Assembly (NCBI GenBank): GCA_039028635.1
Contig: JBCCHV010000001.1
Location: 124,001 to 188,000, forward strand
Direction: 5' to 3'
Length of the DNA stretch: 64,000 nt
From: Acidobacteriota bacterium
Lineage (GTDB): Bacteria > Acidobacteriota > Thermoanaerobaculia > Multivoradales > JBCCEF01
Shown here: in pieces, positions 7,964 through 39,139 of the stretch
Layout of the letters: each line of letters opens with the position of its first letter
Position numbering within the stretch: position 1 is the stretch's first letter
Translations under genes and position numbers: made by a program
Notes under the pieces: generated by a model
The model's database searches: none
The model's input: the letters and a program-made list of their open reading frames with translations, nothing else
Told to the model about the DNA's origin: nothing

Positions 7964-7982
7964 CAAGCGGGTCTGCGATCCC

Positions 7983-9572
7983 TCAGAGGTAGCCCAGGCT
8001 GCGCAGCAGGTCCCGCTGCTCGTCCGTCAGCTCCTCCTTGGCGCGCTCGTCGAGGGCCCGGCGGTGACGCACCAGCTGGCGCTCGAGGCGACGCTCGAGG
8101 ACCTCGCCATCGCTGCCGCCATCGCCACCGGCGAGCTCGTCGGGAGAGCGCGTCAGGTCGACCGTTTGGCGCCGCCTGATGTTGGCGTAGTCCTGCCAGA
8201 GCACCTTCACCGGCCAGCGATAGCCGGCCAGGCCGACGATCTCCTCCGGTTGGGTGGGGGAGAGGCCATAGCTCCACCATTCGTCGCTCGGCGGGCACTC
8301 GGACGGCTTCTCCCAGCAGGGTCGCAGAGAGCGACCGGTGATGCCCGGTGGGCTGGCCAGCTCGAGGAGGTCGAGGAGGGTCGGCGTCAGGTCCGCGGAG
8401 AGGGCGGAACGGTCGGTGATCCGCCGGCCCGCCGGAATCGCCGGGCCGCGCAGCAGAAAGAGAGTGCGGAGCTGGTCCTGGTAAACGAATGGCGCGTGGC
8501 CGACCATGCCGAGGCGATAGAGCGCTTCGCCGTGATCGGAGGTCAGCACCCAGAGGGTCTTCGAGCTGTCGCCGAGGGCCCTCGAGAGGCGGCCCAACTG
8601 CTGGTCGACGAAGGCGACCTCGTGGCGGTACTCGGTGATCGCTTCGGCTTTCGATTGGCCGAGGCGGCGGCCGCGGAAGATCAGATCGACTTCGACGGCC
8701 TCGTCGCCGGGGTTCGAAAGGACCAGCGACCAGCTCGGCTCGAGGCGAATCTCCTCGCCCGGGCCGGGGGGCGGGACGGCACCGGTCCAGGGCGCCAGGT
8801 TTTCCGGCACCAGGAGCTCCAGCACCAGGTAGCTCGCCGTCGGTTGCGGAGGCGGCAGGGCGCGGAAGGTCACCTGATGCTCCCCTGGAGGCAGCGGGAA
8901 CACCACCGAAAAGTGTTCCTTCGAGGCCAGGTCCCAGGTGCCGAGAGGGGCGCCCTCGAGGTCGAGGGCGAGATCCGGTGGGCTGTGCCGGCGACGATAG
9001 GGCTCGTGGGGATCGGAGAGATGGACCCAGAGGAAAATTGGCCGGTCTCCCTGCTCGGCGATCCAGCTCTCGGCGAGGTCGAGGACCTCGTCGCCGTAGC
9101 GATAGGGACGCGGATGGGCGAAGCGGTCGTCGTAGGTTTCGAACCCCTGGTCGAGGCCGAACTGACGGCCGAGCACACCCAGAGAAGGAAAGGCAGCCGT
9201 GCGATAGCCGGCTTCGCGCAGGACCTCGGCCAGCGTGGTCAGGCTTTCCGGAACCGTGTCACCGTTGGCCATGACGCCGTTGTCGAGGGGCGCCGTTCCG
9301 GTGAACAGGCTGGTGTGGGCCGGCAAGGTCAAGGGCACCGGAGTGTGGGCCTGCTCGAACAGCAGGCCCTGACGGGCGAAGCTGGCCAGCTCGGGCGTGG
9401 TGTCGACGGTGGGATCGAACAGGCTGGTGAACTCGACGTTCAGGGTGTCGAAGGTCACCACCACGACGCGCGAGTAGCGTGGGTGAACGCCTTCCGAGCT
9501 GCAGGCGAGAAACGCCAGAGATGCCAGGAGAATGGTCGCCAGCGGTCGCGCGCGGAGAATTCGAGGCCACAT
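7983..9572 (-). CDS. Sulfatase-like alkaline phosphatase superfamily hydrolase, lipoprotein
   Basis: The 529-residue product begins MWPRILRARP, followed by a hydrophobic stretch and LAFLACSS, a good lipobox. The metal-site start VVVVTFDTLN, the segment TLPAHTSLFTG and the HLSDPHEPY and TSDHGE motifs place it in the sulfatase/phosphodiesterase branch. In formylglycine-dependent sulfatases a Cys or Ser begins the CxPSR motif; here Thr of TLPAH takes that position, so phosphoester hydrolysis or a degenerate site is more likely than sulfate release. The start is the ATG at 9572. The frame remains open upstream, but that extension has no signal sequence and overlaps the leader of the divergent peptidase. 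The stop-to-stop distance to the convergent lipoprotein gene is about 20 bases. Confidence 0.8.
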   Translation of the reverse strand: MWPRILRARPLATILLASLAFLACSSEGVHPRYSRVVVVTFDTLNVEFTSLFDPTVDTTPELASFARQGLLFEQAHTPVPLTLPAHTSLFTGTAPLDNGVMANGDTVPESLTTLAEVLREAGYRTAAFPSLGVLGRQFGLDQGFETYDDRFAHPRPYRYGDEVLDLAESWIAEQGDRPIFLWVHLSDPHEPYRRRHSPPDLALDLEGAPLGTWDLASKEHFSVVFPLPPGEHQVTFRALPPPQPTASYLVLELLVPENLAPWTGAVPPPGPGEEIRLEPSWSLVLSNPGDEAVEVDLIFRGRRLGQSKAEAITEYRHEVAFVDQQLGRLSRALGDSSKTLWVLTSDHGEALYRLGMVGHAPFVYQDQLRTLFLLRGPAIPAGRRITDRSALSADLTPTLLDLLELASPPGITGRSLRPCWEKPSECPPSDEWWSYGLSPTQPEEIVGLAGYRWPVKVLWQDYANIRRRQTVDLTRSPDELAGGDGGSDGEVLERRLERQLVRHRRALDERAKEELTDEQRDLLRSLGYL

Positions 9573-9669
9573 GTCGAAGATCCTAACGCCGGGAAGAGTA
9601 GAATGCGTCGACATCTCGAGGAACGAGGGACGACGACGTGAACTCAACGGAGAAGGAGGAGGAAGGCCC

Positions 9670-11754
9670 ATGCTGGCGAATGAATTACCGAGACGGAGGG
9701 GGCTGGGAATCCTACTCGTGGCCGTGCTCGCGATGAGCGGCCCGGCGATGGCGGCAGAACGTGCGATCACGGCGGAAGATATCGACGCCCTGCGGAGCGT
9801 CAACGCGGCCGAGATCTCACCGGACGGCACCCGGATCGCATACACCGTGTCGATCCCCCGCAATCCCTTCGAAGAGGACAATGGTCCGGCCTGGAGCGAG
9901 CTCCACGTGATCGGCTCAGATGGCGTCAGTCGGCCCTTCATCACCGGCGAGGTCAACGTCCAGGACATCTCTTGGACTCCCTTCGGCGACGCCATCGCCT
10001 TCCGCTCGAAGCGCGACGGCGACGACCACACGGCGGTCTACCGCATCGCCCTCGGCGGCGGCGAAGCCCGGCGCATCGCCGCCCATGAAACGGCGATCAC
10101 CTCCTACAGCTTCAGCCCGGACGGCAAGCGCCTGGCCTATCTCGCCAAAGACGCCGAGGACAAGGACAAGAAGGATCTCGCCGAAAAGGGCTTCGATGCC
10201 GAAGTCTTCGAAGAGGATGATCGCTGGGTCAAGGTCTGGATCCACACCATCGACGGAGACGAGGAAGCGCGCGCCCTCGAGCTCGATGGCTCCGCTTCGG
10301 AGCTCCACTGGGCACCGATCGGCAACCAGATTGCCGTTGCCCTGGCGCCGAGCTCGCGCATCGACGACCACTACATGCTGCGCAAGATCAAGGTGGTCGA
10401 CAGCCAGAGCAGCGAGGTGCTCGGCGAGATCGACAACGAGGGCAAGCTCGGGGAGGTGGCCTGGAACCCGACGGCGACCCATCTCGCGATGATCTCGGCG
10501 GTCGACAAGCACGATCCCCGGGAAGGTCGTTTGATGGTCGCCGAGGCCAGCGGCGGCAAGCCCTCGGACGTCTTGCCGCACTATCCGGGTCACGTGCGCG
10601 ACATCCAGTGGATCGACCCGGAGCGCATTCTTTTCCTCGGCGGTGAAGGGGTTCAGACCAGCTTTGGCCGGGTGGCCTTCAACGGTCACGCCCATCGCGA
10701 TTTGCTGGGCGCCGCCGGCCGACCGGCCTGGACCAGCTTCAGCGTCTCCTCCGGCGGCGGCCAGGTGGCCTTCGTGGGCCAGTCGCCGCAGCACCCGGCG
10801 GAGCTCTTCCGCTGGGCCGTCCGCGAGGCCGAGCCGACGCGCCTGACGCACAGCAATCCGGTGCTCGAAGAGATTCGCCTCGCTCCTCAGGAGGTGGTCG
10901 AGTTCGCGGCCCGCGATGGCCTCGAGCTGGAGGCGATTCTGATCCGTCCCCTCGACGAGCAGAAGGGCACCCGCTACCCCTTGATCCTCAGCGTTCACGG
11001 CGGTCCCGAGTCCCACCACGACAACGGTTGGCTGACGACCTATTCGAGCCCTGGCCAGCTCGGTGCCGCCCACGGCTATGCGGTGCTCTACGTCAACTAC
11101 CGTGGCAGCACCGGCCGCGGTCTCGAGTTCTCGAAGCTCAGCCAGGCGGATCCCGGCGGCAAGGAGTTCGACGATCTGGTCGACGCGGTCGAGCACCTGA
11201 TCGCCGAGGGCCTGGTGGACCGTGAGCGGGTGGGCATCACCGGCGGCTCCTACGGCGGCTACGCTTCCGCCTGGGGAGCGACCAAGCTGACCGAGCATTT
11301 CGCCGCCAGCGTCATGTTCGTCGGCATCTCGGAGAAGATCGCCAAGTCGGGCACCACCGATATCCCCAACGAGGAGTATTTGGTCCACGCCCGTCGCTGG
11401 CCGTGGGAGAAGTGGGACTTCATGGTCGAGCGCAGCCCGGTGGCCTACGTCGAGCAGGCGCGCACCCCGATCCTCATCCTGCACGGCGCCGAGGACCCGC
11501 GGGTCCACCCCAGTCAGTCGTTGATTCTGTACCGCTACTTCAAGATGGTGGGCAAGACTCCGGCGCGCCTGATCTGGTATCCGGGCGAGGGCCACGGCAA
11601 TCGCAAAGCCGCGGCCCGGATGGACTACAACCGCCGCATGATGCGCTGGTTCGACCACTACCTGAAGGGGGAGGGCGGCGATCCGCCGCCGGCGGAGCTC
11701 GACTGGAGCGCCCACCAGGAGGCCGACGACGCGGCTGAGGAAGGCGCCGAGTGA
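9670..11754 (+). CDS. S9 family prolyl oligopeptidase / dipeptidyl aminopeptidase-like peptidase, exported
   Basis: The 694-residue protein has an N-terminal signal peptide (hydrophobic run ending AMAAER), a beta-propeller region with WD40-like SPDGTRIAY and SPDGKRLAY repeats, and a C-terminal alpha/beta hydrolase domain. The nucleophile lies in GGSYGGYAS (Ser about 527), the acid in LHGAEDPRVH (Asp about 609) and the base in PGEGHGN (His about 642). This is the full S9 triad. A strong purine-rich ribosome site (GGAGAAGGAGGAGGAAGG) sits before the ATG at 9670. The stop overlaps the GTG of the OPT transporter gene by four bases, so peptide hydrolysis outside the cytoplasm and oligopeptide uptake are probably translated together. 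Confidence 0.92.
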   Translation: MLANELPRRRGLGILLVAVLAMSGPAMAAERAITAEDIDALRSVNAAEISPDGTRIAYTVSIPRNPFEEDNGPAWSELHVIGSDGVSRPFITGEVNVQDISWTPFGDAIAFRSKRDGDDHTAVYRIALGGGEARRIAAHETAITSYSFSPDGKRLAYLAKDAEDKDKKDLAEKGFDAEVFEEDDRWVKVWIHTIDGDEEARALELDGSASELHWAPIGNQIAVALAPSSRIDDHYMLRKIKVVDSQSSEVLGEIDNEGKLGEVAWNPTATHLAMISAVDKHDPREGRLMVAEASGGKPSDVLPHYPGHVRDIQWIDPERILFLGGEGVQTSFGRVAFNGHAHRDLLGAAGRPAWTSFSVSSGGGQVAFVGQSPQHPAELFRWAVREAEPTRLTHSNPVLEEIRLAPQEVVEFAARDGLELEAILIRPLDEQKGTRYPLILSVHGGPESHHDNGWLTTYSSPGQLGAAHGYAVLYVNYRGSTGRGLEFSKLSQADPGGKEFDDLVDAVEHLIAEGLVDRERVGITGGSYGGYASAWGATKLTEHFAASVMFVGISEKIAKSGTTDIPNEEYLVHARRWPWEKWDFMVERSPVAYVEQARTPILILHGAEDPRVHPSQSLILYRYFKMVGKTPARLIWYPGEGHGNRKAAARMDYNRRMMRWFDHYLKGEGGDPPPAELDWSAHQEADDAAEEGAE

Positions 11755-13685
11755 GCAACGGCGAGCAACAGAAGAAGCCCTTCGCGCCGTATTTCTCGGC
11801 CGACGAGAGCCCTGCCGAGCTGACCTTCAAGGCGGTGCTGGCGGGCATCCTCTTCGGTGTGCTGTTCGGCGCCGCCAACGCCTACCTGGGACTCAAGGTC
11901 GGGCTGACCATCTCGACCTCGATTCCGGTGGCGGTGGTCACCGTTGCCGCCTTCCGAACCCTCGGCAAGGCGGGAGTCAAGACCAGCCTGCTCGAGGCCA
12001 ACCTGTCGCAGACCGTCGGCTCGGCTTCGAGCTCCGTCGCCAGCGGCGTGATCTTCACCCTGCCGGCGCTGTTCCTCTGGGGGCTGGCTCCGTCGCTGCT
12101 GCAGATGACCACCTTGGCCCTCGCCGGCGGCCTGATCGGGATCCTGTTCATGATCCCGTTGCGACGCTTCCTGATCGAGCGCGAGCACGGCAAGCTGCCC
12201 TATCCCGAGGGCACCGCCTGTGCCGAGGTCCTGCAGGCCACGGAAAGCGGCGGAGGGCGCGCCAAGAACGTCTTCTTGGGGCTCGCCGTCGGCGCCTTCT
12301 TCAAGGCCATCTTGGGCTGGATGAAGGCCCTTCCGGGCGATCTCGAGGTCCATATTCCATTCCTCAAGAAGGGCCAGCTCGGCACCGAAGTGTCGGCGGC
12401 CCTGCTCGGCGTCGGCTACATTCTCGGCGTGCGGGTGGCCTCCATCATGGTCGGCGGCGGCCTCCTCGCCTGGCTGGTGATCATCCCGATCATCGCCACC
12501 TGGGGTGAGGGCCGAGGCGCGCCCTTCTATCCCGAAACGGTGCTCACCATCTCGGAGATGAGCGCCGGCCAGATCTGGAACCGTTACGTGCGCTATATCG
12601 GTGCCGGGGCGGTGGCGGCGGCCGGCATCATCACCTTGATCCGCAGCATCCCGACCATGATCGAGAGCTTCAAGGTCGGCACTCGGCAGCTCCGCCAGCG
12701 CCTCGACGCCAGCGGCGTGGCGCAGGCGATTCCGCGCACCAGCCGCGACCTGCCGCTGCCGGTGGTGGGAATCGGCGTGGCCGCCGTCGCGCTGGTGCTG
12801 ACGGTGATCCCGGAGGCCTTCGGTGCGATCGAAGGCCTTGCTCCGCGCGCCGTTGCCACCGTCCTGGTGGTCATCTTCGCCTTCTTCTTCGTCACCGTGT
12901 CGTCGCGCATCGTCGGCCTGGTCGGCGTCACCTCGAATCCGACCAGCGGCATGACCATCGCCACCTTGCTCGGCACGGCGGGGATCTTTCTCGCCCTCGG
13001 CTGGACCGACGATGCCGGCAAGATGGCCGCCCTGACGGTCGGCTCGGTGGTCGCCATCGCCGCCTCCATCGCGGGCGATACGTCGCAGGACCTGAAGACC
13101 GGCTTCATCCTCGGAGCCACTCCCCGAACCCAGCAGATGGGAGAGCTGGTGGGAGTCCTCAGCTCGGCTTTCTTCGTCTGTCTGACGGTGATGATGCTGG
13201 GCCAGGTCTACGGTTTCGGCTCGGCCGAGCTGGCGGCGCCCCAGGCGACCCTGATGAAGCTGGTGATCGACGGCGTCCTCGAGCAGGCCTTGCCCTGGGG
13301 GCTGGTCGGCATCGGCGTGTTGATCGCCATCGCCGCCGAGCTCTGCCGGATTCCGAGCCTGCCCTTCGCGGTCGGCGTCTATCTGCCCGTTTCGACCATG
13401 GTGCCGGTGTTCCTCGGCGGTGCTCTGCGCTGGTTCCTGGCTCGCCGCGGCGTCGACGAGAAGGGCCGCGATCGCGGCGTCCTGTTCGGTTCCGGCCTGG
13501 TCGGTGGCGAAGGTCTGATGGGAGTCGGAATCGCGGGCATGGCGGCCTTTGCGGCAAGCCGTGGGGAGCGTCCCTGGAGTCTCGGCGCGGAATGGGCGGG
13601 AGCTGCCGGACCGTGGCTCTCGGCGGTGCTTTTCGCCGGCCTGCTGTGGTTCTTCGCCCGCCTCTGCCGCAGCCGGGAGGAGTAA
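11751..13685 (+). CDS. OPT family oligopeptide transporter
   Basis: The 644-residue integral membrane protein has about 14-16 hydrophobic helices. Family signs include AELTFKAVLAGILFGVLFGA near the N-terminus, the NAYLGLKVGLTISTSIPVAV segment and the PYPEGTACAEVL motif in the cytoplasmic loop. These match the prokaryotic OPT group that imports oligopeptides or metal chelates, probably proton coupled. It starts with GTG inside the four-base GTGA overlap with the S9 peptidase stop, so translational coupling is likely. The glutamine cyclotransferase gene follows 4 bases after the stop, completing a three-gene peptide-use operon. Confidence 0.92.
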   Translation: MSNGEQQKKPFAPYFSADESPAELTFKAVLAGILFGVLFGAANAYLGLKVGLTISTSIPVAVVTVAAFRTLGKAGVKTSLLEANLSQTVGSASSSVASGVIFTLPALFLWGLAPSLLQMTTLALAGGLIGILFMIPLRRFLIEREHGKLPYPEGTACAEVLQATESGGGRAKNVFLGLAVGAFFKAILGWMKALPGDLEVHIPFLKKGQLGTEVSAALLGVGYILGVRVASIMVGGGLLAWLVIIPIIATWGEGRGAPFYPETVLTISEMSAGQIWNRYVRYIGAGAVAAAGIITLIRSIPTMIESFKVGTRQLRQRLDASGVAQAIPRTSRDLPLPVVGIGVAAVALVLTVIPEAFGAIEGLAPRAVATVLVVIFAFFFVTVSSRIVGLVGVTSNPTSGMTIATLLGTAGIFLALGWTDDAGKMAALTVGSVVAIAASIAGDTSQDLKTGFILGATPRTQQMGELVGVLSSAFFVCLTVMMLGQVYGFGSAELAAPQATLMKLVIDGVLEQALPWGLVGIGVLIAIAAELCRIPSLPFAVGVYLPVSTMVPVFLGGALRWFLARRGVDEKGRDRGVLFGSGLVGGEGLMGVGIAGMAAFAASRGERPWSLGAEWAGAAGPWLSAVLFAGLLWFFARLCRSREE

Positions 13686-13689
13686 ACCC

Positions 13690-14481
13690 GTGATCGCCGG
13701 GGGAGGGCCGATCGGCCGCCGGCTGGCGGCCCTCGCCGCCAGCCTGATGGCCTTCGCCTGCGCTGCTCCGGCGGCTCAAGGGGCGGCGGTGCGCGAAGCC
13801 TATGTCGAAGTGCTCGAGGTGTTTCCCCACGACGAGCAGGCCTTCACCCAAGGCCTCGAGTGGTACGACGGCGCCTTGCTCGAGTCCACCGGCCAGTTCG
13901 GCGAATCGAGCCTGCGGCGAGTCGAGATCTCGAGCGGCGAGGTCGAGAAACGGCGAGAGGTCGATTCTCGGTACTTCGCCGAAGGCCTGACCCGCGTCGG
14001 GGATCGCCTCATTCAGCTCACCTGGCAGGCCGGTGAGGCGTTGGTCTACGACGCCGAGTCCCTGGCACCGCGCGGCCGCCTCGACTACCGCGGCGAGGGC
14101 TGGGGCCTGTGTTTCGATGGCGAGCGGCTGGTGATGAGCGATGGCTCGTCTCAGTTGACCTTCCGCGACCCCGAGACCTTCGCCGAGCTTTCGACCCTCG
14201 AGGTCACCCTGCGCGGCCGCCCGCTGCGCAATCTCAACGAGCTCGAGTGCGTTCACGGCGAGGTCTACGCCAATGTTTTCGGCAGCGACGTCATCGTGGC
14301 GATCGACCCGCTCAGTGGTCGGGTCACCCAGATGGTGGACGCCTCCGGATTGCTGCCGCCCTCCGAAGCGCGGCATGCCGATGTCCTCAATGGCATTGCC
14401 TGGGACCCGGTGGGGGAACGCTTTCTGGTCACCGGCAAGAACTGGCCCAAGCTCTTCGCTGTGCGCTTCGTCGAGCGCTGA
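13690..14481 (+). CDS. Glutaminyl-peptide cyclotransferase (glutamine cyclotransferase family, beta-propeller)
   Basis: The protein of 263 residues has a signal peptide (AALAASLMAFACAAPAAQG) and a five-bladed beta-propeller typical of plant/bacterial-type QC. Diagnostic stretches are FTQGLEW, LLESTGQFGESSL, GWGLCFDG, LNELECVHGEVYANVF and LNGIAWDP. It would convert N-terminal Gln of peptides to pyroglutamate in the periplasm. I use the GTG at 13690, four bases after the transporter stop; the frame is open further upstream, but that part overlaps the transporter and has no signal sequence. Its place behind a peptidase and a peptide transporter fits a peptide-processing role. Confidence 0.85.
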   Translation: MIAGGGPIGRRLAALAASLMAFACAAPAAQGAAVREAYVEVLEVFPHDEQAFTQGLEWYDGALLESTGQFGESSLRRVEISSGEVEKRREVDSRYFAEGLTRVGDRLIQLTWQAGEALVYDAESLAPRGRLDYRGEGWGLCFDGERLVMSDGSSQLTFRDPETFAELSTLEVTLRGRPLRNLNELECVHGEVYANVFGSDVIVAIDPLSGRVTQMVDASGLLPPSEARHADVLNGIAWDPVGERFLVTGKNWPKLFAVRFVER

Positions 14482-30911: not shown

Positions 30912-30986
30912 GGCGACGTAGCCAAGTGGTAAGGCAAGGGTCTGCAAAACCCTCATTCGTCGGTTCGATTCCGACCGTCGCCTCCA
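30912..30986 (+). tRNA. tRNA-Cys (anticodon GCA), integration site of the mobile element
   Basis: Acceptor GGCGACG pairs with CGTCGCC, followed by T and CCA. The anticodon stem AGGGT/ACCCT holds CTGCAAA, giving anticodon GCA. The 3' 45 bases, from the anticodon loop to the CCA, are repeated exactly at 39095-39139. The tRNA gene here is complete, so the element kept it functional by carrying a copy of the 3' part. Confidence 0.97.
30942..30986 (+). repeat. attL: 45-bp direct repeat in the tRNA-Cys 3' half
   Basis: It begins at the first base of the anticodon loop and ends with the last A of CCA. It is identical to 39095-39139 over all 45 bases, while the bases on each side differ. It marks the left junction. 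Confidence 0.95.
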
Positions 30987-31054
30987 ATTAAATTCTCCAA
31001 ATAAAGATGTTTGCGGCTCTTCTGCTGCGCTGCTGCTTGTGAGTCCCTGAGCTG

Positions 31055-31073
31055 CGGAAGCAAGACGGAAGCA
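31055..31073 (+). promoter_or_regulatory. Putative left integrase arm-type sites (two CGGAAGCA copies)
   Basis: CGGAAGCA occurs at 31055-31062 and again at 31066-31073, with 11-base spacing. The same pair in the same orientation and with the same spacing lies near the other end (38968-38986). Paired repeats at both ends suit arm-binding by the integrase N-terminal domain. Confidence 0.55.
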
Positions 31074-31472
31074 GAAGGCGCTATTTCAGCCCTCCGTTGC
31101 CGGCCTCGCGAAGCGGCGGGATTTCGGACCTCGTCTCAAATGATCCGAAGCTCTAGCCCTCCCACCGTCCAGAGAAACTGAATCGGACCTGGATCGGGTG
31201 AAGACTGGATTGGAGCATGGGCAGGGCGGATCGCCTGCACGGCGGCTTATCAGCAGCGACAACGGCCGATGGGTGAGGAGTGCTGGATATGGCTAGGTGT
31301 GTCTTCGGCGCGGCCAGCTAGGCGCGAACGAAGGCGGCAAGGCCAAGGCAGAAGTGGCGGAGTGGCGGGGGGTATGCCCAATCCCCGGCCCCCTGATAGG
31401 GCATTAAGGCGACGCCGGGGTGCCCTCGTGTGCGTACGCGGCCCGTGGAGGCCACAAGGCCAAGCCTGGCCC

Positions 31473-31670
31473 TCAGTCCAAGCCGAGAAAGCGTCGGATG
31501 GCCTCTTGGGCCAAATCCGAGGCGGAACAGTCCCGCTCGGCCGCCGCGACCTTGAGCGCTCGCTTTTCTTCAGGCTCTAGGAAGATCACCGTTCGAAGCT
31601 TTCCGCTCTTCGTCACGGTGGTTTTCCCACCCCGAGGCCCTGAGAGGGCCTTTTTCTTCTTCGTTGCCAT
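31473..31670 (-). CDS. Ribbon-helix-helix (CopG/Arc-type) DNA-binding protein
   Basis: This 65-residue basic protein begins MATKKKKALSGPRGGKTTVT. It has a beta strand LRTVIFLEPEEKRAL followed by two helices (VAAAERDCSASDLAQEAIRR), the ribbon-helix-helix pattern. It probably binds as a dimer to the palindrome at 31696-31712 just upstream and represses itself and the divergent genes. No toxin gene is adjacent, so an antitoxin role is less likely. The ATG at 31670 lies six bases after a -10-like TATAGT, so the transcript may be leaderless. Confidence 0.75.
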   Translation of the reverse strand: MATKKKKALSGPRGGKTTVTKSGKLRTVIFLEPEEKRALKVAAAERDCSASDLAQEAIRRFLGLD

Positions 31671-31676
31671 CTAATG

Positions 31677-31707
31677 ACTATACGGTCCTGTTTGACACGA
31701 TTGTCAA
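31677..31707 (-). promoter_or_regulatory. Promoter of the ribbon-helix-helix gene
   Basis: On the minus strand TTGACA (31707-31702) and TATAGT (31682-31677) are separated by 19 bases, slightly long. Transcription would start at about 31670, which is the A of the ATG. The -35 box lies inside the palindrome. Confidence 0.5.
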
Positions 31708-31712
31708 TCGTG
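31696..31712. promoter_or_regulatory. Palindromic operator between divergent promoters
   Basis: CACGATTG-T-CAATCGTG is a perfect 8-bp inverted repeat with a one-base centre. It overlaps the -35 boxes of both the leftward promoter and a rightward one (TTGACA at 31692-31697, weak -10 TAGGGT at 31715-31720, 17-base spacer). The adjacent ribbon-helix-helix protein is the likely ligand. Confidence 0.65.
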
Positions 31713-31820
31713 ACTAGGGTTGGGTCGTGAGCCCCACTGTGGAGGCTCCATAAACGAAGCGGCCCCGGCAAGTGCGGTCACACTCACCGGAGCCTAGCCA
31801 CCCATGGAGAACGAGCCCCC

Positions 31821-32270
31821 ATGAGCGACCAAAGAGAGTCTACCCCGCGCCCCCACCCTCTGCCGATGTCTTGCCGCCCTTCTGGCAGCTCTCCCGCCCG
31901 CCCGCCGCTGGCCTGGTCCGAAGACGATGGCTTTCGGGAAATCTACCTCGTTGAGTTTGACGACGAAGGCACCCGCAGGACCCTTCGCCGCCTAGCGGCA
32001 TTGGTAGTCACCCTTTACCGGGAAGGCTTTCGCACATATTCGCCCAAGGCTGAGCCCTTCATGGTGCGATCTCTGCGCGCTTTGGTCGCTGACGTGCGTC
32101 ACTTACACGGGTTTGCCGACCTCCTAGGCCGCCGAGCCGAGGAAGATGAGCTGGAGCGCTCGGAGGTTCCGCTATCAGATCTGGCCCGAGACATGGCCCC
32201 AATCTTTGGGCAGCTCGCCGACCGCCTTGAATCTGGTCTGGAAGCGGGCGGCGAACTCTTGGGATCCTGA
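31821..32270 (+). CDS. Element protein of unknown function
   Basis: The 149-residue product has a Pro/Ser-rich N-terminal tail and a helical, acidic body: FREIYLVEFDDEGTRRTLRR, LAALVVTLYREGFRTYSP, LRALVADVRHLHGFADLLG and a C-terminal LADRLESGLEAGGELLGS. No motif is recognised. It is the first rightward gene behind the operator at 31696-31712 and lies 18 bases upstream of the terminase-like gene, so it is probably part of the regulated rightward transcript. The size would fit a phage accessory protein. Confidence 0.55.
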   Translation: MSDQRESTPRPHPLPMSCRPSGSSPARPPLAWSEDDGFREIYLVEFDDEGTRRTLRRLAALVVTLYREGFRTYSPKAEPFMVRSLRALVADVRHLHGFADLLGRRAEEDELERSEVPLSDLARDMAPIFGQLADRLESGLEAGGELLGS

Positions 32271-32288
32271 TTCGGCTATCCTTGATCT

Positions 32289-32909
32289 ATGTCGCAAGAG
32301 CATGGGGCAGCCCTGCCCCGGCCCGCTTATTGGAGTCCAGAGCATGTCGTCCGAAGACTCAAGAACGGAGTCTCGGTGGCATCGATCATCCGTCAGGCGC
32401 AGCGCGACCTGGCAGGCGAGAGGGTTAGCCGCATTCCGAAAGAGAACACCTTTAGGGCGGATATTCTGAGGTGGCGAAAGGCCGACCCGGAATTCGCGGA
32501 ACGCTTCCACGCGGCGAAGTTCGCCTGTTACGCGGCCCAAGGCCGGGCCGTGGCCGGCGGCCCCCTGGGAGGGGGCAGGCCCCGGCGCTTTGATGAGTCC
32601 ATGCAAGGCAAATTCATTGCCGAGCTAGAGACTCGCGGCGGAGTCCCCGGCAGCATGAGACGAGCTGCTGAAGCGGTGGGCATCAGCCTTCGGCACGTCA
32701 TGCGCAAGCTCGACCCTCGTTGCCACTCCTATGACGAGACTTTTGCCGATCTCTATTGGGATGCGATCGGGGAGATGCAGGGAGAGGTGTTCGAGGCGGT
32801 TCTCGATGAGGCCCTTACGCCGAGGGCCCCGAGTGAAGCCCGCCGCAACTCTCTGATTCTCTGCCAGGTCGCAAGGTCTCTCATGCCACACATCTTCGGC
32901 TCTAGATAG
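32289..32909 (+). CDS. HTH protein resembling phage terminase small subunit
   Basis: The 206-residue protein has two similar helical HTH-like modules. The first contains ADILRWRKADPEFAERFHAA, a pattern common in phage terminase small subunits and related homeodomain-like proteins. The second contains RRAAEAVGISLRHVMRKLD and ETFADLYWDAIGEMQGEVFE. No large terminase is encoded. If it is a TerS, it could redirect the packaging of a helper phage, as in phage satellites. A plain DNA-binding regulator is equally possible. Confidence 0.5.
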   Translation: MSQEHGAALPRPAYWSPEHVVRRLKNGVSVASIIRQAQRDLAGERVSRIPKENTFRADILRWRKADPEFAERFHAAKFACYAAQGRAVAGGPLGGGRPRRFDESMQGKFIAELETRGGVPGSMRRAAEAVGISLRHVMRKLDPRCHSYDETFADLYWDAIGEMQGEVFEAVLDEALTPRAPSEARRNSLILCQVARSLMPHIFGSR

Positions 32910-32992
32910 TCCAGGTACTTAGTACATTGACCATCGCCCTACGCGCGTGCGTCCCTCCGTGAACATCTCCCACTCGAGGTTTTGGCTCCCTG

Positions 32993-32998
32993 TATAAT
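32993..32998 (+). promoter_or_regulatory. -10 box for the trypsin cargo gene
   Basis: A perfect TATAAT lies 45 bases before the ATG at 33043. The -35 region is poor. Its independent position suggests that the cargo gene has its own promoter. Confidence 0.4.
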
Positions 32999-33042
32999 TA
33001 GAGTCCTTACTCAATTAATGCTATTAGTCGATGGGAGGCTCT

Positions 33043-34578
33043 ATGAAGATTCCGTGCCTCAGAGCTTGGCCTGCTTTGGTCGTCCTGGTCGCGAGCGTCG
33101 GGGTCTCGGCCGATGAACCCGTTTCGGACAGCAAAGCTCTTCAACCTATCGCCGCACCGATCGTCAACGGAGTTCTGACCTCGGGACTCTCATCGGTGGC
33201 GGCGCTGATAGGGCCGGCTCAGCAGACTGGGGAGCCCGCTGCCTTCTGCTCGGGAACTCTTATCGGCTGCCAGACGGTGCTCACTGCCGCACACTGCCTT
33301 TGCCCTGGAGATACGCCCTGCGCCGTCAACCCCGCCGATGTAGACGTCTTTTTTCAGCATTCTGGTATCTACCCGGTTGAAAGTGTGTCGGTTCATCCCC
33401 AGTACCAGTTTGGCGTCGGAAAAGACCTTGCGATTCTCCGCCTGCCGTTTCCGGTAGCGGGGGTTACTCCCACGCCGATCAACACCACGGCACGCCCAGC
33501 GCTAGGTAGTGCCGGGCTGATTTCAGGCTTTGGGCGAGTCGGTGGGAACGATCCCTATACGGGCATCAAACGAGCCGGAGCCGTTGTCACGAGCACTTGC
33601 CCTCCTGGGCTCTCACCATCGAATTTGTGCTGGGATTTTCTCGCGCCAGTGGGACCTGCTGGCTTCGACTCCAGTATATGCCAGGGGGATTCAGGCGGGC
33701 CTCTATTTGTTGACTTCGGAGGTGGCCCAAGGGTGGCTGGAGTTACCTCTGGCGTGAACTCAGAGAGTTGCCTGGCACCTAGTTCTGTTTTGGACACAGA
33801 TGTTTTCGTGGACCGCGCATGGATTCAGTCGGTCGCCGGCGCCGATCTCAACACGACCACTTGCAGCAGTTTTCCTGCTGCTGGCTCTTCGCAGGCTCCC
33901 ATAGCTGCGGCTGCGGGCGTCTTGTCGCCGGCTAACGCTGAGGATCGCTACACCCTCGCCGTTCCTTCGGGCGGGCAACTACTGTGGACCACGTTGAATG
34001 GTGAAGGCCCCTTCTTGGGTGACTACGATCTCTACGTCAAGAGGGGGTCGCCACCATCCCGAACCGACTTCGATTGTTCGTCCGAGCAACAGGGGCAGTT
34101 CGAAGCGTGCGGTGTTCCAAATTTCAGCGCAGGAACCTGGCATTTCCTCGTGGACAGATCTAGCGGCACCGGCCTCTACCAAATGACCACCACTACCTAT
34201 CTAGGAAACACGACAGGCGGCAGTGAGTGCGTGCCCAATGCCCAGACTCTCTGCCTTCGGAACAGGCGCTTCCGAGTGACGGTCGATTTCCGGCAACGAG
34301 GCGCACTCTCCAAGCCGGCGACGGCAGTTCCTTTTACCGACAGCTCGGGCCTCTTTTGGTTCTTCAGTCAGGACAATTCGGAAATGCTGGTTAAAGTCCT
34401 CGATGCCTGTGTCGAGCCATTCAATCGATACTGGGTGTTTTTCGCGGCTACGACAAATGTCGAGTTCGAAGTGGTCGTCGAAGACACTCTGCGGGGTGCT
34501 GTTCGCCGTTACCCCAATCCCCAGGGAATGACAGCGCTTCCGATCCAGGATACGCAAGCTTTCGCGACTTGCCCATAG
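33043..34578 (+). CDS. Secreted trypsin-like serine protease (S1) with PPC-like and lineage-specific C-terminal domains
   Basis: The 511-residue protein has a signal peptide (MKIPCLRAWPALVVLVASVG, then VSADEP) and an S1 domain (about 40-270). The triad is complete: LTAAHC (His 84), KDLAIL (Asp 128) and GDSGGP (Ser 217). Residues about 285-390 resemble a bacterial pre-peptidase C-terminal domain (DYDLYVKRGSPPSRTDFDC, then AGTWHFLVDRSSGTGLY). The last 115 residues form a domain seen, as far as I recall, in many Acidobacteriota secreted proteins (CLRNRRFRVTVDF, GLFWFFSQDN, NRYWVFFAATTNVEFEV). GGGAGG just before the ATG at 33043 supports that start over 33031. It is cargo of the tRNA-Cys element. 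Confidence 0.9.
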   Translation: MKIPCLRAWPALVVLVASVGVSADEPVSDSKALQPIAAPIVNGVLTSGLSSVAALIGPAQQTGEPAAFCSGTLIGCQTVLTAAHCLCPGDTPCAVNPADVDVFFQHSGIYPVESVSVHPQYQFGVGKDLAILRLPFPVAGVTPTPINTTARPALGSAGLISGFGRVGGNDPYTGIKRAGAVVTSTCPPGLSPSNLCWDFLAPVGPAGFDSSICQGDSGGPLFVDFGGGPRVAGVTSGVNSESCLAPSSVLDTDVFVDRAWIQSVAGADLNTTTCSSFPAAGSSQAPIAAAAGVLSPANAEDRYTLAVPSGGQLLWTTLNGEGPFLGDYDLYVKRGSPPSRTDFDCSSEQQGQFEACGVPNFSAGTWHFLVDRSSGTGLYQMTTTTYLGNTTGGSECVPNAQTLCLRNRRFRVTVDFRQRGALSKPATAVPFTDSSGLFWFFSQDNSEMLVKVLDACVEPFNRYWVFFAATTNVEFEVVVEDTLRGAVRRYPNPQGMTALPIQDTQAFATCP

Positions 34579-34623
34579 GCGCCTTGATCGACGCCTAGAC
34601 AGATTGGGTCGCCCATGAGAAGC

Positions 34624-34663
34624 GATGCGGTGATGCAGGCCCTAGGGAACGAATCACCGCATC
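34624..34663. terminator. Hairpin between the convergent protease and ATPase genes
   Basis: GATGCGGTGAT and ATCACCGCATC form a perfect 11-bp stem with an 18-base loop, between the stops at 34578 and 34672. No U-tract is present. It could stop transcription from both sides or have another role. Confidence 0.45.
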
Positions 34664-34671
34664 ATGAACCC

Positions 34672-35799
34672 TCAGGTGAGGCACTTGATCCTCTTCAAGG
34701 CTCGACACACCGTGGACTGGGATACTCCTAGCTGCTCAGCGATCTCACGCTGTGGAAGGCCCTCGGCCGCTAGTTGCTGCGCCTGCTCGGCGATCGAGTC
34801 CTGAAGGGGCTTCCACGTCCATCCTTCTAGCTTCCCGGCCTCGCCGGCCGGCTTGGTCGAGTAGCGAGCCTCGATCTCGGCAACATCCTCTCCGAAGATG
34901 TGACGTGCCTTCGGGAACTTGAGAGTGAAACGTGCTCCCTCCTCTGGGCTGTAGTCGGCGGGCCGGGCCAACGAGATCGACAGATCCAAAACGTCCTCCC
35001 TTCGCGAGGTCCCCCGTTGGGCACCACTCTTCCCGGAGTGGTGAACGAGAAGCACGGAGAATCCTTGCCGGCGGAGCCTGAGAAGCCACGCTTGGGTGGG
35101 TGACCAGCTATCGGCCTCATTGTCCCTGACCGTCGGGAGTAGGCAACTCACGTTGTCGAGGACTACGAGCGAACCGGGCCTTAGTTGGCGTTCGATTTCT
35201 GTCCGTCCTCGCTCGGTCGAGAGGTCCGGGGGTGAGCCTTCGGGACCCTGCGCATCCCAGGAAGCGATCTGGAACATGCCTTCGCGATCGTTTTTGACGC
35301 CTTGGCTTTTCCCGAGATTTCGGAGGCGTTCTTGCATGTCCTCGGCTGGCATTTCGCCGTCAACGTAGAGAACAGGGTTGGGTTCCTCTGCGGTCCATCG
35401 TAGGAATCGGCCACCGGTAGCTATCGCCCAGCCCAGGCCGATCGAAAAGAGCGTCTTTCCGCAACCGCGAGGCGCATAGACCATGGAGAGACTCTTCTGC
35501 AGAATCAAGGGCTCAAGCAGAAAGCGCCGAGGAGGAAAGTCAAAGAGATCGAATTCGTTGGCCGTGTAGAGCTTCAACCCGCTGCGGCCTTCTCTGGCTG
35601 ACCGGCCGGAAACCTCTTCATTGGTGACCTCGACAGGAATCGTATTGGCTCCTGAATCGCCTTCGAGAATCCTCGCTGGAGGCTCGATCGGTTCGGGCAA
35701 ATGTGGCCTCTCGCGCTCGGCCTCAAAGGCGCTAAGGCTTGGGGGTAGCGCGTCAGCGAGTGTGCTGAAGTCGCACCTTGGCTTGTCGGTCCTATCCAC
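34672..35799 (-). CDS. RecA-like AAA ATPase (RepA/AAA_25 type) with C-terminal HTH
   Basis: The 375-residue protein has Walker A APRGCGKT, a sensor segment PNPVLYVDGEMPAEDMQERL, Walker B GSLVVLDNVS, and LLVHHSGKSGAQRGTS with DVLDLSISL. These match plasmid RepA-like hexameric helicases and phage AAA_25 ATPases. The C-terminus LPQREIAEQLGVSQSTVCRA is a helix-turn-helix. It probably drives element replication. I use the GTG at 35799, which overlaps the upstream stop by eight bases (GTGGATAG), the same coupling as at the next junction; an ATG at 35937 would give 46 more residues. Confidence 0.8.
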   Translation of the reverse strand: MDRTDKPRCDFSTLADALPPSLSAFEAERERPHLPEPIEPPARILEGDSGANTIPVEVTNEEVSGRSAREGRSGLKLYTANEFDLFDFPPRRFLLEPLILQKSLSMVYAPRGCGKTLFSIGLGWAIATGGRFLRWTAEEPNPVLYVDGEMPAEDMQERLRNLGKSQGVKNDREGMFQIASWDAQGPEGSPPDLSTERGRTEIERQLRPGSLVVLDNVSCLLPTVRDNEADSWSPTQAWLLRLRRQGFSVLLVHHSGKSGAQRGTSRREDVLDLSISLARPADYSPEEGARFTLKFPKARHIFGEDVAEIEARYSTKPAGEAGKLEGWTWKPLQDSIAEQAQQLAAEGLPQREIAEQLGVSQSTVCRALKRIKCLT

Positions 35800-36337
35800 T
35801 GGTCCGACCCCGGCCAACCGAATCACGAGGCTCAATCCGCACTGCGGGAACCTCCCCCAGAAGGTTGACGCCTTCGAGTTGCCGATGGTGGGAGTCCTGC
35901 CACTTCCCATCCGGGGGATACACCGCAACCCCGCCACGAGCCGAGATCTGGTCTACCTCACGCTCGCTCGAAGCTATCGTGACGGGAGTGCCCTCCCTGC
36001 GAGCACGGACGAGCCTCTCAGAGCCGTAGACGGTGGAAGGTAGAGCCTGCCCATCCGTCAGCTTCCAGCCCCCTCCGGTCGGGCTGAGCACTTGCCAGCG
36101 GGAGCCCTCGGGCTCGCCATCCCATCCAGGGATGTAGACCACTCGGCGCATGTGCTGTTCGCCAGACTCCGAGAGGTAGGCAAACCAACAGGTGGGTACT
36201 GGCTCTGAACTACGGCTCCTGGGTGAGGTAGGATGATTGGTGCCGGAGAAGACTGCCGGTTTTCCTGCAGAGTACGTTCCGCCGGGCCGTCCCGCGCTCC
36301 ATACGCGGGTCGGCGGGGCATGTTTGCACCTACTCAT
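35792..36337 (-). CDS. Element protein, degenerate primase (Toprim)-like
   Basis: The 181-residue protein begins MSRCKHAPPTRVWSAGRPGG. Its second half reads ALPSTVYGSERLVRAR, then TPVTIASSEREVDQISARGG and PPDGKWQDSHHRQLEGVNLL. That order resembles phage primases, where EGEKDADRL precedes a PGGAGKW segment. The Toprim glutamate (EGEK becomes SSER) and the DxD segment are absent, so if it is a primase relative it is inactive or eroded. The ATG overlaps the HTH gene stop (ATGAGTAG) and its own stop overlaps the ATPase GTG. Confidence in the family is low; confidence that it is coding is moderate. Confidence 0.5.
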   Translation of the reverse strand: MSRCKHAPPTRVWSAGRPGGTYSAGKPAVFSGTNHPTSPRSRSSEPVPTCWFAYLSESGEQHMRRVVYIPGWDGEPEGSRWQVLSPTGGGWKLTDGQALPSTVYGSERLVRARREGTPVTIASSEREVDQISARGGVAVYPPDGKWQDSHHRQLEGVNLLGEVPAVRIEPRDSVGRGRTSG

Positions 36338-36566
36338 TACCGCTCCCGGAAGTCCGAACCTCGCTAGTCGAGTGTGCTGTCCGTGCGTCGCTCCAGGCTT
36401 GGAGATCTTCCCTCGCGTAGAGAATCGCACGTCCATGGCGGCGATACGGCGGACCTCCACCGTCAACTCTCCATCGTTCGAGTGTGCTTCTCTTCAAGCC
36501 TAGAAAGTCGGATGCCTCCGGGGTTCGTAGAAAGGGCTTCATGTCGTTCGACACTGAATGAGCCAT
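36330..36566 (-). CDS. AlpA/excisionase-like helix-turn-helix protein
   Basis: The 78-residue protein contains LRTPEASDFLGLKRSTLERW, RVDGGGPPYRRHGRAILYAR and EDLQAWSDAR. This is the winged-HTH pattern of the AlpA/Xis (MerR-like) family, which controls integrase genes or directs excision. The ATG at 36566 has GGAG nine bases upstream; in-frame starts at 36599 and 36683 are weaker. Its stop overlaps the next ATG (ATGAGTAG). It follows the integrase and the 301-residue gene after a 252-base gap. Confidence 0.75.
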   Translation of the reverse strand: MAHSVSNDMKPFLRTPEASDFLGLKRSTLERWRVDGGGPPYRRHGRAILYAREDLQAWSDARTAHSTSEVRTSGSGNE

Positions 36567-36818
36567 GAGGGTTTCTCCAAGTCGTTCGAATGTGGTCATG
36601 CTCCAACCAGGTATATCCAGTGTCGCGACGACGCCGGATAGATGGGAGGAGGTAACCTGAGAATCACGACTCGGGATACACAACGAATCGACCGAAAGTC
36701 TTTGCTATCAGGGATTTGTGAGAGTCTCTTGGGGGGGGAAGTCGAAGTGAATCGTTCTAGAGGGGGGGGGCGAGCCAGGTCGGCGCCCTTCTCAGACCTC
36801 ATTCGTTGGGCATCGCTG
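36567..36818. other. 252-base noncoding gap with two long G tracts
   Basis: The plus strand has G8 at 36731-36738 and G9 at 36762-36770. Read on the minus strand, which is the transcript of the upstream integrase genes, this is a C-rich, G-poor stretch after the stop at 36819, the profile of a Rho loading site. Several GAATCG/GATTCG motifs occur here and in the end of the neighbouring gene (near 36683 and 36748). The promoter of the AlpA-ATPase block probably lies here, but I see no clear box. Confidence 0.35.
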
Positions 36819-37724
36819 CTACTTGATTCGGCTAACGCCTCTCGTGTTCGATCGGATTCGATCGAGCGGTAGTCCTACGGACTCCGCTGCGGCTTCTACG
36901 GCATCCTTGTATGTGGACCTAGCGGCGTAGTCTCGGACCGCGCCTTGGGGGACTCGATAAGGTCCTTTCTGTAAATTCTCAACGGTCCACTGGGGTGTTG
37001 CTTCATAGGGTGCTCCGGCCTGCTTCATCGCCAACCAGCAGAGATTCCGGGCCTGTTGTTCGACCGATCGCCTGTGTCCGGACTGTTGACCATCCCAGTG
37101 ACCGATAAACCAGAGTCTCCAGGGCTCTTCCCTGGGATCCTCTTTGGGATGCTGAGAGAGAATCGCGGGGCTAGAAGTCTCGAATGCCTCTTCAAAGGCT
37201 TGCGCGAGAGCCGTCCTCTGCTCGTCCTTCCACTGCTCAAAGGTCTTGCGATCAAGTGACGCCAACAGTGGATTTGGCAATTCGACCTCAAAGGTCCGTC
37301 GGATAGGTGGAGGCTGGAAGCGGGTATCAGCCCCAGTTAGGTAGCTGCGTTTTTCGTTCAATTCTTTTGGGGAGAAAAACTGTCCCGACGCCCGAGGGTC
37401 GAATATCCAGTAGTCGTCGTCGGCCGAGTAGCTGAGATGTTCTTCAGCCTCCTGCTTCATTTGGGCGGTATCGGGGAGATGCGAGCGCTTTGTCCACTGG
37501 GCAAACCAACCTTCGTCAAGCCGACCCCGAGGGAGCTCGTCTCCGTACTCATCCTCTCCGCGCAAGTGGGGAGGCTTTGGAAATGGAGCCTCGAGGAAGT
37601 AGCCGCTCTTTGCCTCTCTAAGGCTCTCCAGGGCCCGTGGGCTGGCTTCGTGCAGGTAGTAGAGGAACCAGCGAAGTTGGGTCCTGTCATCGAAGAGGAC
37701 CCGGCCTGCGGGCTTCTCAGCCAT
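36819..37724 (-). CDS. Element protein of unknown function, coupled to the integrase
   Basis: The 301-residue soluble protein begins MAEKPAGRVLFDDRTQLRWF and has many Trp, Pro and charged residues: FPKPPHLRGEDEYGDELPRG, YWIFDPRASGQFFSPKEL, RRTFEVELPNPLLASLDRKT and EEPWRLWFIGHWDGQQSGHR. I recognise no family. The ATG at 37724 overlaps the integrase stop by eight bases (ATGGCTGA). Being tied to int, it may act in integration control or replication, but nothing in the sequence shows this. Confidence 0.6.
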   Translation of the reverse strand: MAEKPAGRVLFDDRTQLRWFLYYLHEASPRALESLREAKSGYFLEAPFPKPPHLRGEDEYGDELPRGRLDEGWFAQWTKRSHLPDTAQMKQEAEEHLSYSADDDYWIFDPRASGQFFSPKELNEKRSYLTGADTRFQPPPIRRTFEVELPNPLLASLDRKTFEQWKDEQRTALAQAFEEAFETSSPAILSQHPKEDPREEPWRLWFIGHWDGQQSGHRRSVEQQARNLCWLAMKQAGAPYEATPQWTVENLQKGPYRVPQGAVRDYAARSTYKDAVEAAAESVGLPLDRIRSNTRGVSRIK

Positions 37725-38931
37725 GAGAACGCTTCCGACTGGCCTCTTTCTCAAAGGGGACTATTTCGGCCTCTGTGCCCCGCATTCTCGCCGCGACCTC
37801 CGCGCCGATTTGGCTCGCCGCGCGCTGTAGGACATCGCTCTCTAAGTGGGCGTACCGTTTGGTAGTCGCGGGCGTCTTGTGCCCGAGTAGACCGCCAATT
37901 ACAGGAAGCGACATGCCCGCCCCGACGGCGGCTGCCGCGTAGCTGTGGCGCAGGTCGTGAAGCCTCACGTCCTCTAGCTCCGCGGCCGAGCGGATTCGCC
38001 GCCAGCTCTTGTCGATCCCGATGAAGGGACCCTCCGGAGTGTTACCCCAGCAAACAAAGGGATTCCCATCGACTCGTGCGGCGTTTGTCAGAAGCTCCAA
38101 GGTGGGTGCGTTAAGCTGAATATCCTTCGCCCCTGTCTTGCTGTCCTGAAGTCGAAGCCGATTTCCGGGAAGGTCTACCTCATCCCAGCGAAGGCCGAGA
38201 ATTTCTCCCCGCCGAGCCCCTGTCAGAAGCAGGAGGCGAATGCACAGGATGGCGCTTGGGTGCTCAGAGTTGGAGCCTTCCGCCTCTTTGAGGGCTTCGG
38301 CTAGTCGTGAGGTTTCTTCGCCCGTGAGGTAGCGCTTTCGCGGCTCCTCCTTGTACCGGTCGATGTTCCGGGCCGGGTTCGAGCCATCAGCCCGATAGCC
38401 CCACCTCTCAGCAAGGGCAAACATTTTTCCGGCCAAGGAAGCGGCGCGGTTCGCTTGAGTTGGTGTTCCTCGGTGCTTGTCGTGCATCTTCGCGACATCG
38501 CCCCGCGTAACAGCAGCCACTTTGAGCCGGCCGAGAGACGGAATGATGACCAATCGCAAGAGCCGCTCATCGGACTGAATCGAACTCGGCTTCTTCTTAG
38601 GCCGGGCGTGGCGCTCCATATAGACTTCGGCAAGCTCCGAGACGGTGAGCCCTTCGCGGCCTTGCTTGCGCTCCTCGGCGGGATTGGCCCCTTGAGCGAT
38701 CCTGGCGAGATGGTCCCGGGCCAGTTGGCGCGCCTGAGTCGGAGTCAAATGGCCGTACCGGCCCAAGGTGTATTTGCGAGTCCTACCGCTCGCATCTCTG
38801 TACTGGATCAAGAACGCCTTGCTGCCGCTCGGCCTACAGCGCAGGCCAAACCCGCTGAGGCTCTCGTCGAAGTGGATCTCTTCCTTCTCCGGAGGTTTTA
38901 GTTGGTCAATCGCTCGCTTGGTGAGCCTCAT
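37717..38931 (-). CDS. int: Tyrosine recombinase / P4-type integrase
   Basis: The 404-residue protein has the N-terminal arm-binding DUF4102-like domain (MRLTKRAIDQLKPPEKEEIH, SGFGLRCRPSGSKAFLIQYR, then YTLGRYGHLTPTQAR), a core-binding domain (about 105-210) and a catalytic domain. The residues R-H-R-H-Y are visible in TGARRGEILGLRW, LHDLRHSYAAAAVGAG and LLGHKTPATTKRYAHL. It should recombine attP with the 3' end of tRNA-Cys. AGAGGA lies before the ATG at 38931. It is leftward from the right end of the element, and its stop overlaps the next start. Confidence 0.95.
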   Translation of the reverse strand: MRLTKRAIDQLKPPEKEEIHFDESLSGFGLRCRPSGSKAFLIQYRDASGRTRKYTLGRYGHLTPTQARQLARDHLARIAQGANPAEERKQGREGLTVSELAEVYMERHARPKKKPSSIQSDERLLRLVIIPSLGRLKVAAVTRGDVAKMHDKHRGTPTQANRAASLAGKMFALAERWGYRADGSNPARNIDRYKEEPRKRYLTGEETSRLAEALKEAEGSNSEHPSAILCIRLLLLTGARRGEILGLRWDEVDLPGNRLRLQDSKTGAKDIQLNAPTLELLTNAARVDGNPFVCWGNTPEGPFIGIDKSWRRIRSAAELEDVRLHDLRHSYAAAAVGAGMSLPVIGGLLGHKTPATTKRYAHLESDVLQRAASQIGAEVAARMRGTEAEIVPFEKEASRKRSHG

Positions 38932-38967
38932 ATTCCTCTCTTCCTAGAGCGCCCTCCGGAACCTCCG

Positions 38968-38986
38968 CGGAAGCATGGCGGAAGCA
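38968..38986 (+). promoter_or_regulatory. Putative right integrase arm-type sites (two CGGAAGCA copies)
   Basis: CGGAAGCA at 38968-38975 and 38979-38986, 11 bases apart, repeat the pair at the left end in orientation and spacing. They lie between the int start and the right repeat. The rest of 38932-39094 has no gene. Confidence 0.55.
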
Positions 38987-39094
38987 GGAGGAGTCACTCT
39001 GAGTCCAACTGCATCGCAATGTATACAAGGGAAAGTCCTGTGAAGCAAGGGTCTACGGTAGTTGGTGCAACTCAGCCATACGAAGGGAGAGAGA

Positions 39095-39139
39095 CTGCAA
39101 AACCCTCATTCGTCGGTTCGATTCCGACCGTCGCCTCCA
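39095..39139 (+). repeat. attR: 45-bp direct repeat (tRNA-Cys 3' fragment)
   Basis: It is an exact copy of 30942-30986 without the 5' half of the tRNA, so it cannot make a tRNA. It marks the right end of the element; host sequence resumes at 39140. Confidence 0.95.

Follow-up and report, generated by a model that had tools for sequence, protein, structure and literature searches.

Most of what is known about phage satellites comes from a few well-studied groups, and our literature search found no paper naming both phage satellites and Acidobacteria. The phage-inducible chromosomal minimalist islands (PICMI) of the Vibrionaceae are satellites that need alpA, int and iolg for excision (PMC10803314). 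AH14b from Pseudomonas sp. ANT_H14, an induced satellite, carries int, a gene of 318 aa, alpA, a primase and a helicase (PMC4936722). For P4-like satellites, the core has been listed as psu, sid, delta, epsilon and alpha, and pseudogenised core genes are common (PMC8628076). Finally, the neighbours of the GIsul2 integrase include alpA and repA/C (PMC9376610).

Insertion at tRNA-Cys and the empty site

The window, which is the whole 64,000-nucleotide stretch of DNA analysed here, contains an ~8.2-kb element whose inserted DNA, 30987-39139, measures 8.15 kb. It is a tRNA-Cys integrative element, that is, foreign, self-inserting DNA, delimited by the following features:

30912-30986, plus strand: tRNA-Cys(GCA), the target gene, intact at the left end (ARAGORN; Rfam RF00005)
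30942-30986, plus strand: attL core, 45 bp, exact repeat
39095-39139, plus strand: attR core, 45 bp, exact repeat

The first-pass annotation, made from the letters of this DNA, had reported that the 3' 45 bases of the tRNA are exactly repeated between different flanks, from the anticodon loop onward. Sequence comparison bore this out: the two 45-mers are identical with no mismatch, their outer flanks are unrelated on either side, and the repeat extends from two bases ahead of the GCA anticodon through the encoded CCA. No further copy exists anywhere in the 6.3-Mb genome. Chance does not account for a perfect 45-bp duplicate of a tRNA 3' end next to an integrase. The GC content between the att cores is 59.9%, against 66.9% for the window. 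The Rfam scan returned two tRNAs and no other match, and a search for arm-site repeats near the integrase and the left end gave nothing convincing.

The first-pass annotation had also proposed looking for an empty site in related genomes, and one was found in the only congener searched (genome G001). There, the tRNA-Gly is the same, the tRNA-Cys after it is identical and free of any element, and directly after that comes a homologue of the 39210-39857 gene that lies right of the element (71% identity over 530 bp from 39288). This empty site shows that 30987-39139 is an insertion and that integration re-created a complete tRNA. Together with the att repeats, it establishes insertion at tRNA-Cys with a 45-bp core. 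Border repeats of the tRNA 3' end, an integrase inside near one border and an empty site, three features of the class of tRNA-integrated elements with tyrosine integrases, were found. Conservation of the segment in distant relatives with no empty site, which the first-pass annotation had named as evidence against an element, was not seen: the ORFs of 301 and 206 aa have no convincing relatives in 197 genomes.

The core is identical in four other genomes of the order (L024, L025, L027 and L028), so the target is widely available. In a genome from another family of the order (G042), next after an intact tRNA-Cys come an HTH_17 homologue, a helicase of the AAA_25 family that has a DnaB N-terminal domain, and a terminase-like gene, the latter named from a weak Pfam match (0.005) and also by eye from its sequence. 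On a separate contig of this genome, a related integrase adjoins a tRNA-Cys 3' fragment with the same start, TCTGCAAAACC. These two contigs probably carry the two ends of a single element, the link between them being inferred.

Three other genomes of the order have an intact tRNA-Cys and a tRNA-Cys 3' fragment (L081, 1951-2025 and 5863-5916; L082, 1801-1875 and 4470-4514; L083, 9994-10068 and 8203-8253, respectively). The fragments lie 1.8-3.9 kb from the intact gene with no integrase match between, and the one in L082 starts at the same base as in the window's element. They are possibly integrase-less remnants or passengers.

Gene content of the element

Leftward from attR, five genes follow one another, with gene starts in the element being our choices:

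37717-38931, minus strand: P4-type tyrosine integrase, 404 aa (Pfam, PHROGs)
36819-37724, minus strand: 301-aa orphan ORF in the slot of PICMI iolg; its ATG overlaps the int stop by 8 nt
36330-36599, minus strand: AlpA-type HTH_17 regulator/excisionase (Pfam HTH_17, 1.5e-11; phrog_66 excisionase, 1.2e-10)
35792-36337, minus strand: decayed CHC2/Toprim primase-like ORF (29% identity, E=2e-15, to the N-terminal part of a primase-helicase at locus L193 of the congener)
34672-35799, minus strand: RepA-type AAA_25 helicase with a C-terminal HTH (Pfam AAA_25, 6e-26; HTH_23)

The integrase, already described as complete and of P4 type in the first-pass annotation, has the Pfam domains Arm-DNA-bind_3, Phage_int_SAM_3/central and Phage_integrase, and its translation shows the R..K..HxxR..H..Y residues. 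Homologues in the same order are up to 53-54% identical. Another integrase of this type, interrupted and read in two frames, is present in the genome that the window comes from (L192, 8541-9640 on G000:C3).

The 301-aa ORF has no usable relatives in 197 genomes, viral contigs, genome contigs, plasmids or PDB sequences, and its AlphaFold model is of low confidence. The single match in the 197 genomes is doubtful (8.4e-4, three stops). As none of the ORFs that occupy this slot in related loci resembles it by phmmer, the name iolg is an analogy of position only. Regarding the HTH_17 gene, its start was placed at 36599 (the longest ORF begins at 36683); for the helicase, the GTG at 35799 was chosen as likelier (longest ORF from 35937). 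The helicase profile matches RSF1010 RepA (1g8y) at 2.7e-8.

The slot of the primase-like ORF holds a Toprim primase in several related loci. Here, the zinc-finger cysteines are missing and ASSEREVD stands where the L193 relative has VEGEKDAE. Judged from these losses in the zinc finger and the catalytic motif, the protein is probably inactive as a primase, and the element may therefore be decaying.

The left half carries four further genes:

31473-31670, minus strand: ribbon-helix-helix protein, 65 aa (Pfam Antitox_RHH, 1.2e-4, under the curated cut-off)
31821-32270, plus strand: 149-aa integrase-associated protein (33 homologous places besides the window's own)
32289-32909, plus strand: 206-aa HTH-like protein, candidate terminase small subunit (TerS)
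33031-34578, plus strand: secreted trypsin-like serine protease with PPC domain, read as cargo (Pfam Trypsin, 2.2e-20; PPC, 5e-9)

In the same order, at least 14 of the 33 other places of the 149-aa family have an integrase no more than 10 kb away, among the integrase matches listed. A 44% identical homologue of the ribbon-helix-helix protein stands beside another integrase in genome G006 (L189), together with a homologue of the 149-aa protein. The congener has the 149-aa family twice (L185, 1932-2648; L186, 674-1396), ~70% identical, each copy paired with an ORF of 92-95 aa in chromosomal surroundings with no integrase detected.

The 206-aa ORF matches the terminase small subunit profile phrog_4044 weakly yet significantly (1.2e-5), over only 64 of 180 profile positions, and Pfam Sf6_terminase under the cut-off (0.007). 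Its AlphaFold model is uninformative (pLDDT 41). No useful relatives were found in 197 genomes, viral contigs, phages or the PDB, and the gene has no homologue elsewhere in its own genome.

The catalytic triad of the protease is intact by motif, with TAAHC (H88), DLA (D132) and GDSGGP (S221), and we read its N-terminus as signal-like. Other places in the order have full-length homologues (~44% identity). Of these, L196 was examined and has ordinary chromosomal genes for neighbours, so the element's protease reads as acquired cargo. For a defence function, PADLOC gave weak matches only, which carry no weight.

Pfam, PHROGs, NCBIfam and PADLOC revealed no relaxase, conjugation or virion structural gene in the element, nor was a coupling protein or T4SS gene found there. 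In this respect the first-pass annotation was right, although it missed the TerS-like ORF; its description of the element as non-autonomous holds as far as profiles show. Capsid, virion protease, portal and TerL genes of the cfPICI type are absent from the element by Pfam and PHROGs. Among the P4-like core genes, psu, delta, epsilon and alpha gave no Pfam match, and sid has no Pfam model. The DUF3987 and DUF5906 primase of PICMI is likewise absent from the element, which has the decayed Toprim-like ORF only.

The helicase module in other phyla

Genome contigs were scanned with the helicase alignment, giving 251 relatives, from which 80 loci were fetched. These belong mainly to Proteobacteria, and also to Nitrospirae, Chlamydiae, Verrucomicrobia, Dependentiae and others. 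In 48 of these 80 loci, a tyrosine integrase is encoded upstream of the helicase on the same strand, at a distance of 1.1-4.3 kb (62 of the 80 have at least 5 kb of upstream DNA). An ORF, never resembling the 301-aa one by phmmer, often follows or overlaps int, and a Toprim primase stands just upstream of the helicase in some loci. Downstream cargo is varied, with no frequent family among 112 ORFs.

In Herbaspirillum (L159), genes for capsid, S78 protease, portal, TerS, TerL and connectors lie downstream of the helicase module, a gene content that marks the locus as a satellite resembling capsid-forming PICIs (cfPICI). In three loci (L134, L138 and L073), the same module occurs with relaxase-like genes, named by reading L073 by eye and by tblastn to L073, with no profile. 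L073 itself (7680-13875, genome G008), a probable mobilisable element, has a fusion of a primase-polymerase-like part with AAA_25, together with HTH_17 and the relaxase-like protein. The congener's locus L193 (773-8746 on G001:C6) carries an integrase, a HicA-like ORF, an HTH gene, a CHC2/Toprim-DUF3631 primase, a ParB-like gene, TerS and TerL; it is another satellite-like element or a prophage remnant.

The first-pass annotation knew of no described relative with this gene set. For the backbone this does not hold: int, overlapping gene, AlpA-type HTH, primase-like gene and RepA-type helicase form a widespread module, in the order seen in PICMI, AH14b and L159. What is unmatched in relatives is the particular orphan set, the 301-aa int-overlapping ORF and the 206-aa TerS-like ORF. 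The locus is a real mobile element, not wholly new in kind.

Lifestyle and comparison with described elements

With modest confidence, we favor a small integrative element of phage-satellite type that depends on a helper phage. Consistent with this are the att repeats, the intact integrase, the empty site in the congener, the lower GC and the lack of a relaxase or conjugation gene. The gene order as in PICMI and AH14b, the helicase placed downstream of an integrase on its own strand in 48 of 80 loci and the capsid genes of L159 point the same way. The significant TerS match and the terminase-bearing tRNA-Cys element of G042 argue in particular for dependence on a helper, and L193 shows TerS with TerL in the congener. 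Against it stand the partial TerS match, the uninformative model of that protein, the lack of a homologue of its gene elsewhere in the genome, the lost catalytic residues of the primase-like ORF and the same module found elsewhere with relaxase-like genes or with only other cargo.

On this reading, the integrase inserted a circle into the anticodon-loop/T-arm half of tRNA-Cys, restoring the tRNA 3' end. Going by gene order and homology, excision would be carried out by Int with the AlpA-type protein, perhaps with the int-overlapping ORF, as in PICMI (PMC10803314). Replication of the circle would fall to the RepA-type helicase, aided by a primase that is decayed or borrowed; the 206-aa TerS-like protein might direct the packaging machinery of the putative helper phage to the element, and the secreted protease would be cargo for the host. 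Since it encodes neither a capsid nor a large terminase, the element would need a helper phage.

The losses in the primase-like ORF and the two orphan core genes are also what one would expect of a formerly mobile island, now decaying, kept for its cargo and with no present route from cell to cell. We regard this as unlikely, as the element retains an intact integrase, HTH_17 gene, helicase and pair of att sites, its two att cores match at every base, and pseudogenised core genes are common in P4-like satellites (PMC8628076). The RSF1010 RepA type of the helicase, its relatives beside genes read as relaxase-like by eye and tblastn, not by profile, and the alpA and repA/C of GIsul2 (PMC9376610) would suit a reduced integrative mobilisable element that has lost its relaxase and is transferred by a conjugative element, via an unrecognised oriT or in trans. 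Given the TerS-like gene and the lack of any relaxase, coupling protein or T4SS gene, this appears distinctly improbable. A larger prophage with its structural genes deleted would account for the phage-type integrase and the TerS-like gene, but the two att sites are intact, as is the compact backbone with its satellite gene order, and related modules occur in many phyla, which makes such a remnant very improbable indeed.

Beyond this locus, the series int, overlapping gene, AlpA, Toprim primase and RepA-type helicase might define a cross-phylum class of helper-dependent satellites, most of them lacking capsid and relaxase genes among the first downstream genes, with the window's element as a minimal tRNA-Cys member having its own TerS and a secreted protease. 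We offer this tentatively and hold it to be somewhat doubtful. The element, complete and with its site unoccupied in a congener, lends itself to testing, and the helicase module that it shares with other loci is a marker for satellite-like islands in poorly studied phyla.

Regarding described systems, the element resembles GIsul2 in its integrase, AlpA and RepA, by description and not by sequence, whereas GIsul2 has resistance cargo, transfer-related genes and guaA as target. With cfPICI and PICI it shares int, AlpA, a replication module and perhaps a packaging-redirection gene in its TerS-like ORF, its int and AlpA-type regulator fitting their pairing of int with an AlpA-type or Stl-type regulator, and its helicase family also occurs in the cfPICI-like L159. 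It differs in lacking capsid, protease, portal and TerL, and its TerS is a weakly matching candidate. AH14b has the same order of int, ~300-aa gene, alpA, primase and helicase, a likeness of gene order and not of compared proteins; it is larger (16.8 kb), and its 318-aa gene is HflK/C-like, with no known kinship to the 301-aa ORF. PICMI target fis, not tRNA-Cys, have the DUF3987/DUF5906 primase where the window's element has a RepA-type helicase, and lack the TerS-like gene and protease cargo found here. Like PICMI, however, the element is small and free of capsid genes, combines int (PF00589) with HTH_17 (PF12728), which along with PF05930 is one of the two AlpA profiles used for PICMI, and is built from int, an int-overlapping gene, an AlpA-type regulator and then a replication gene.
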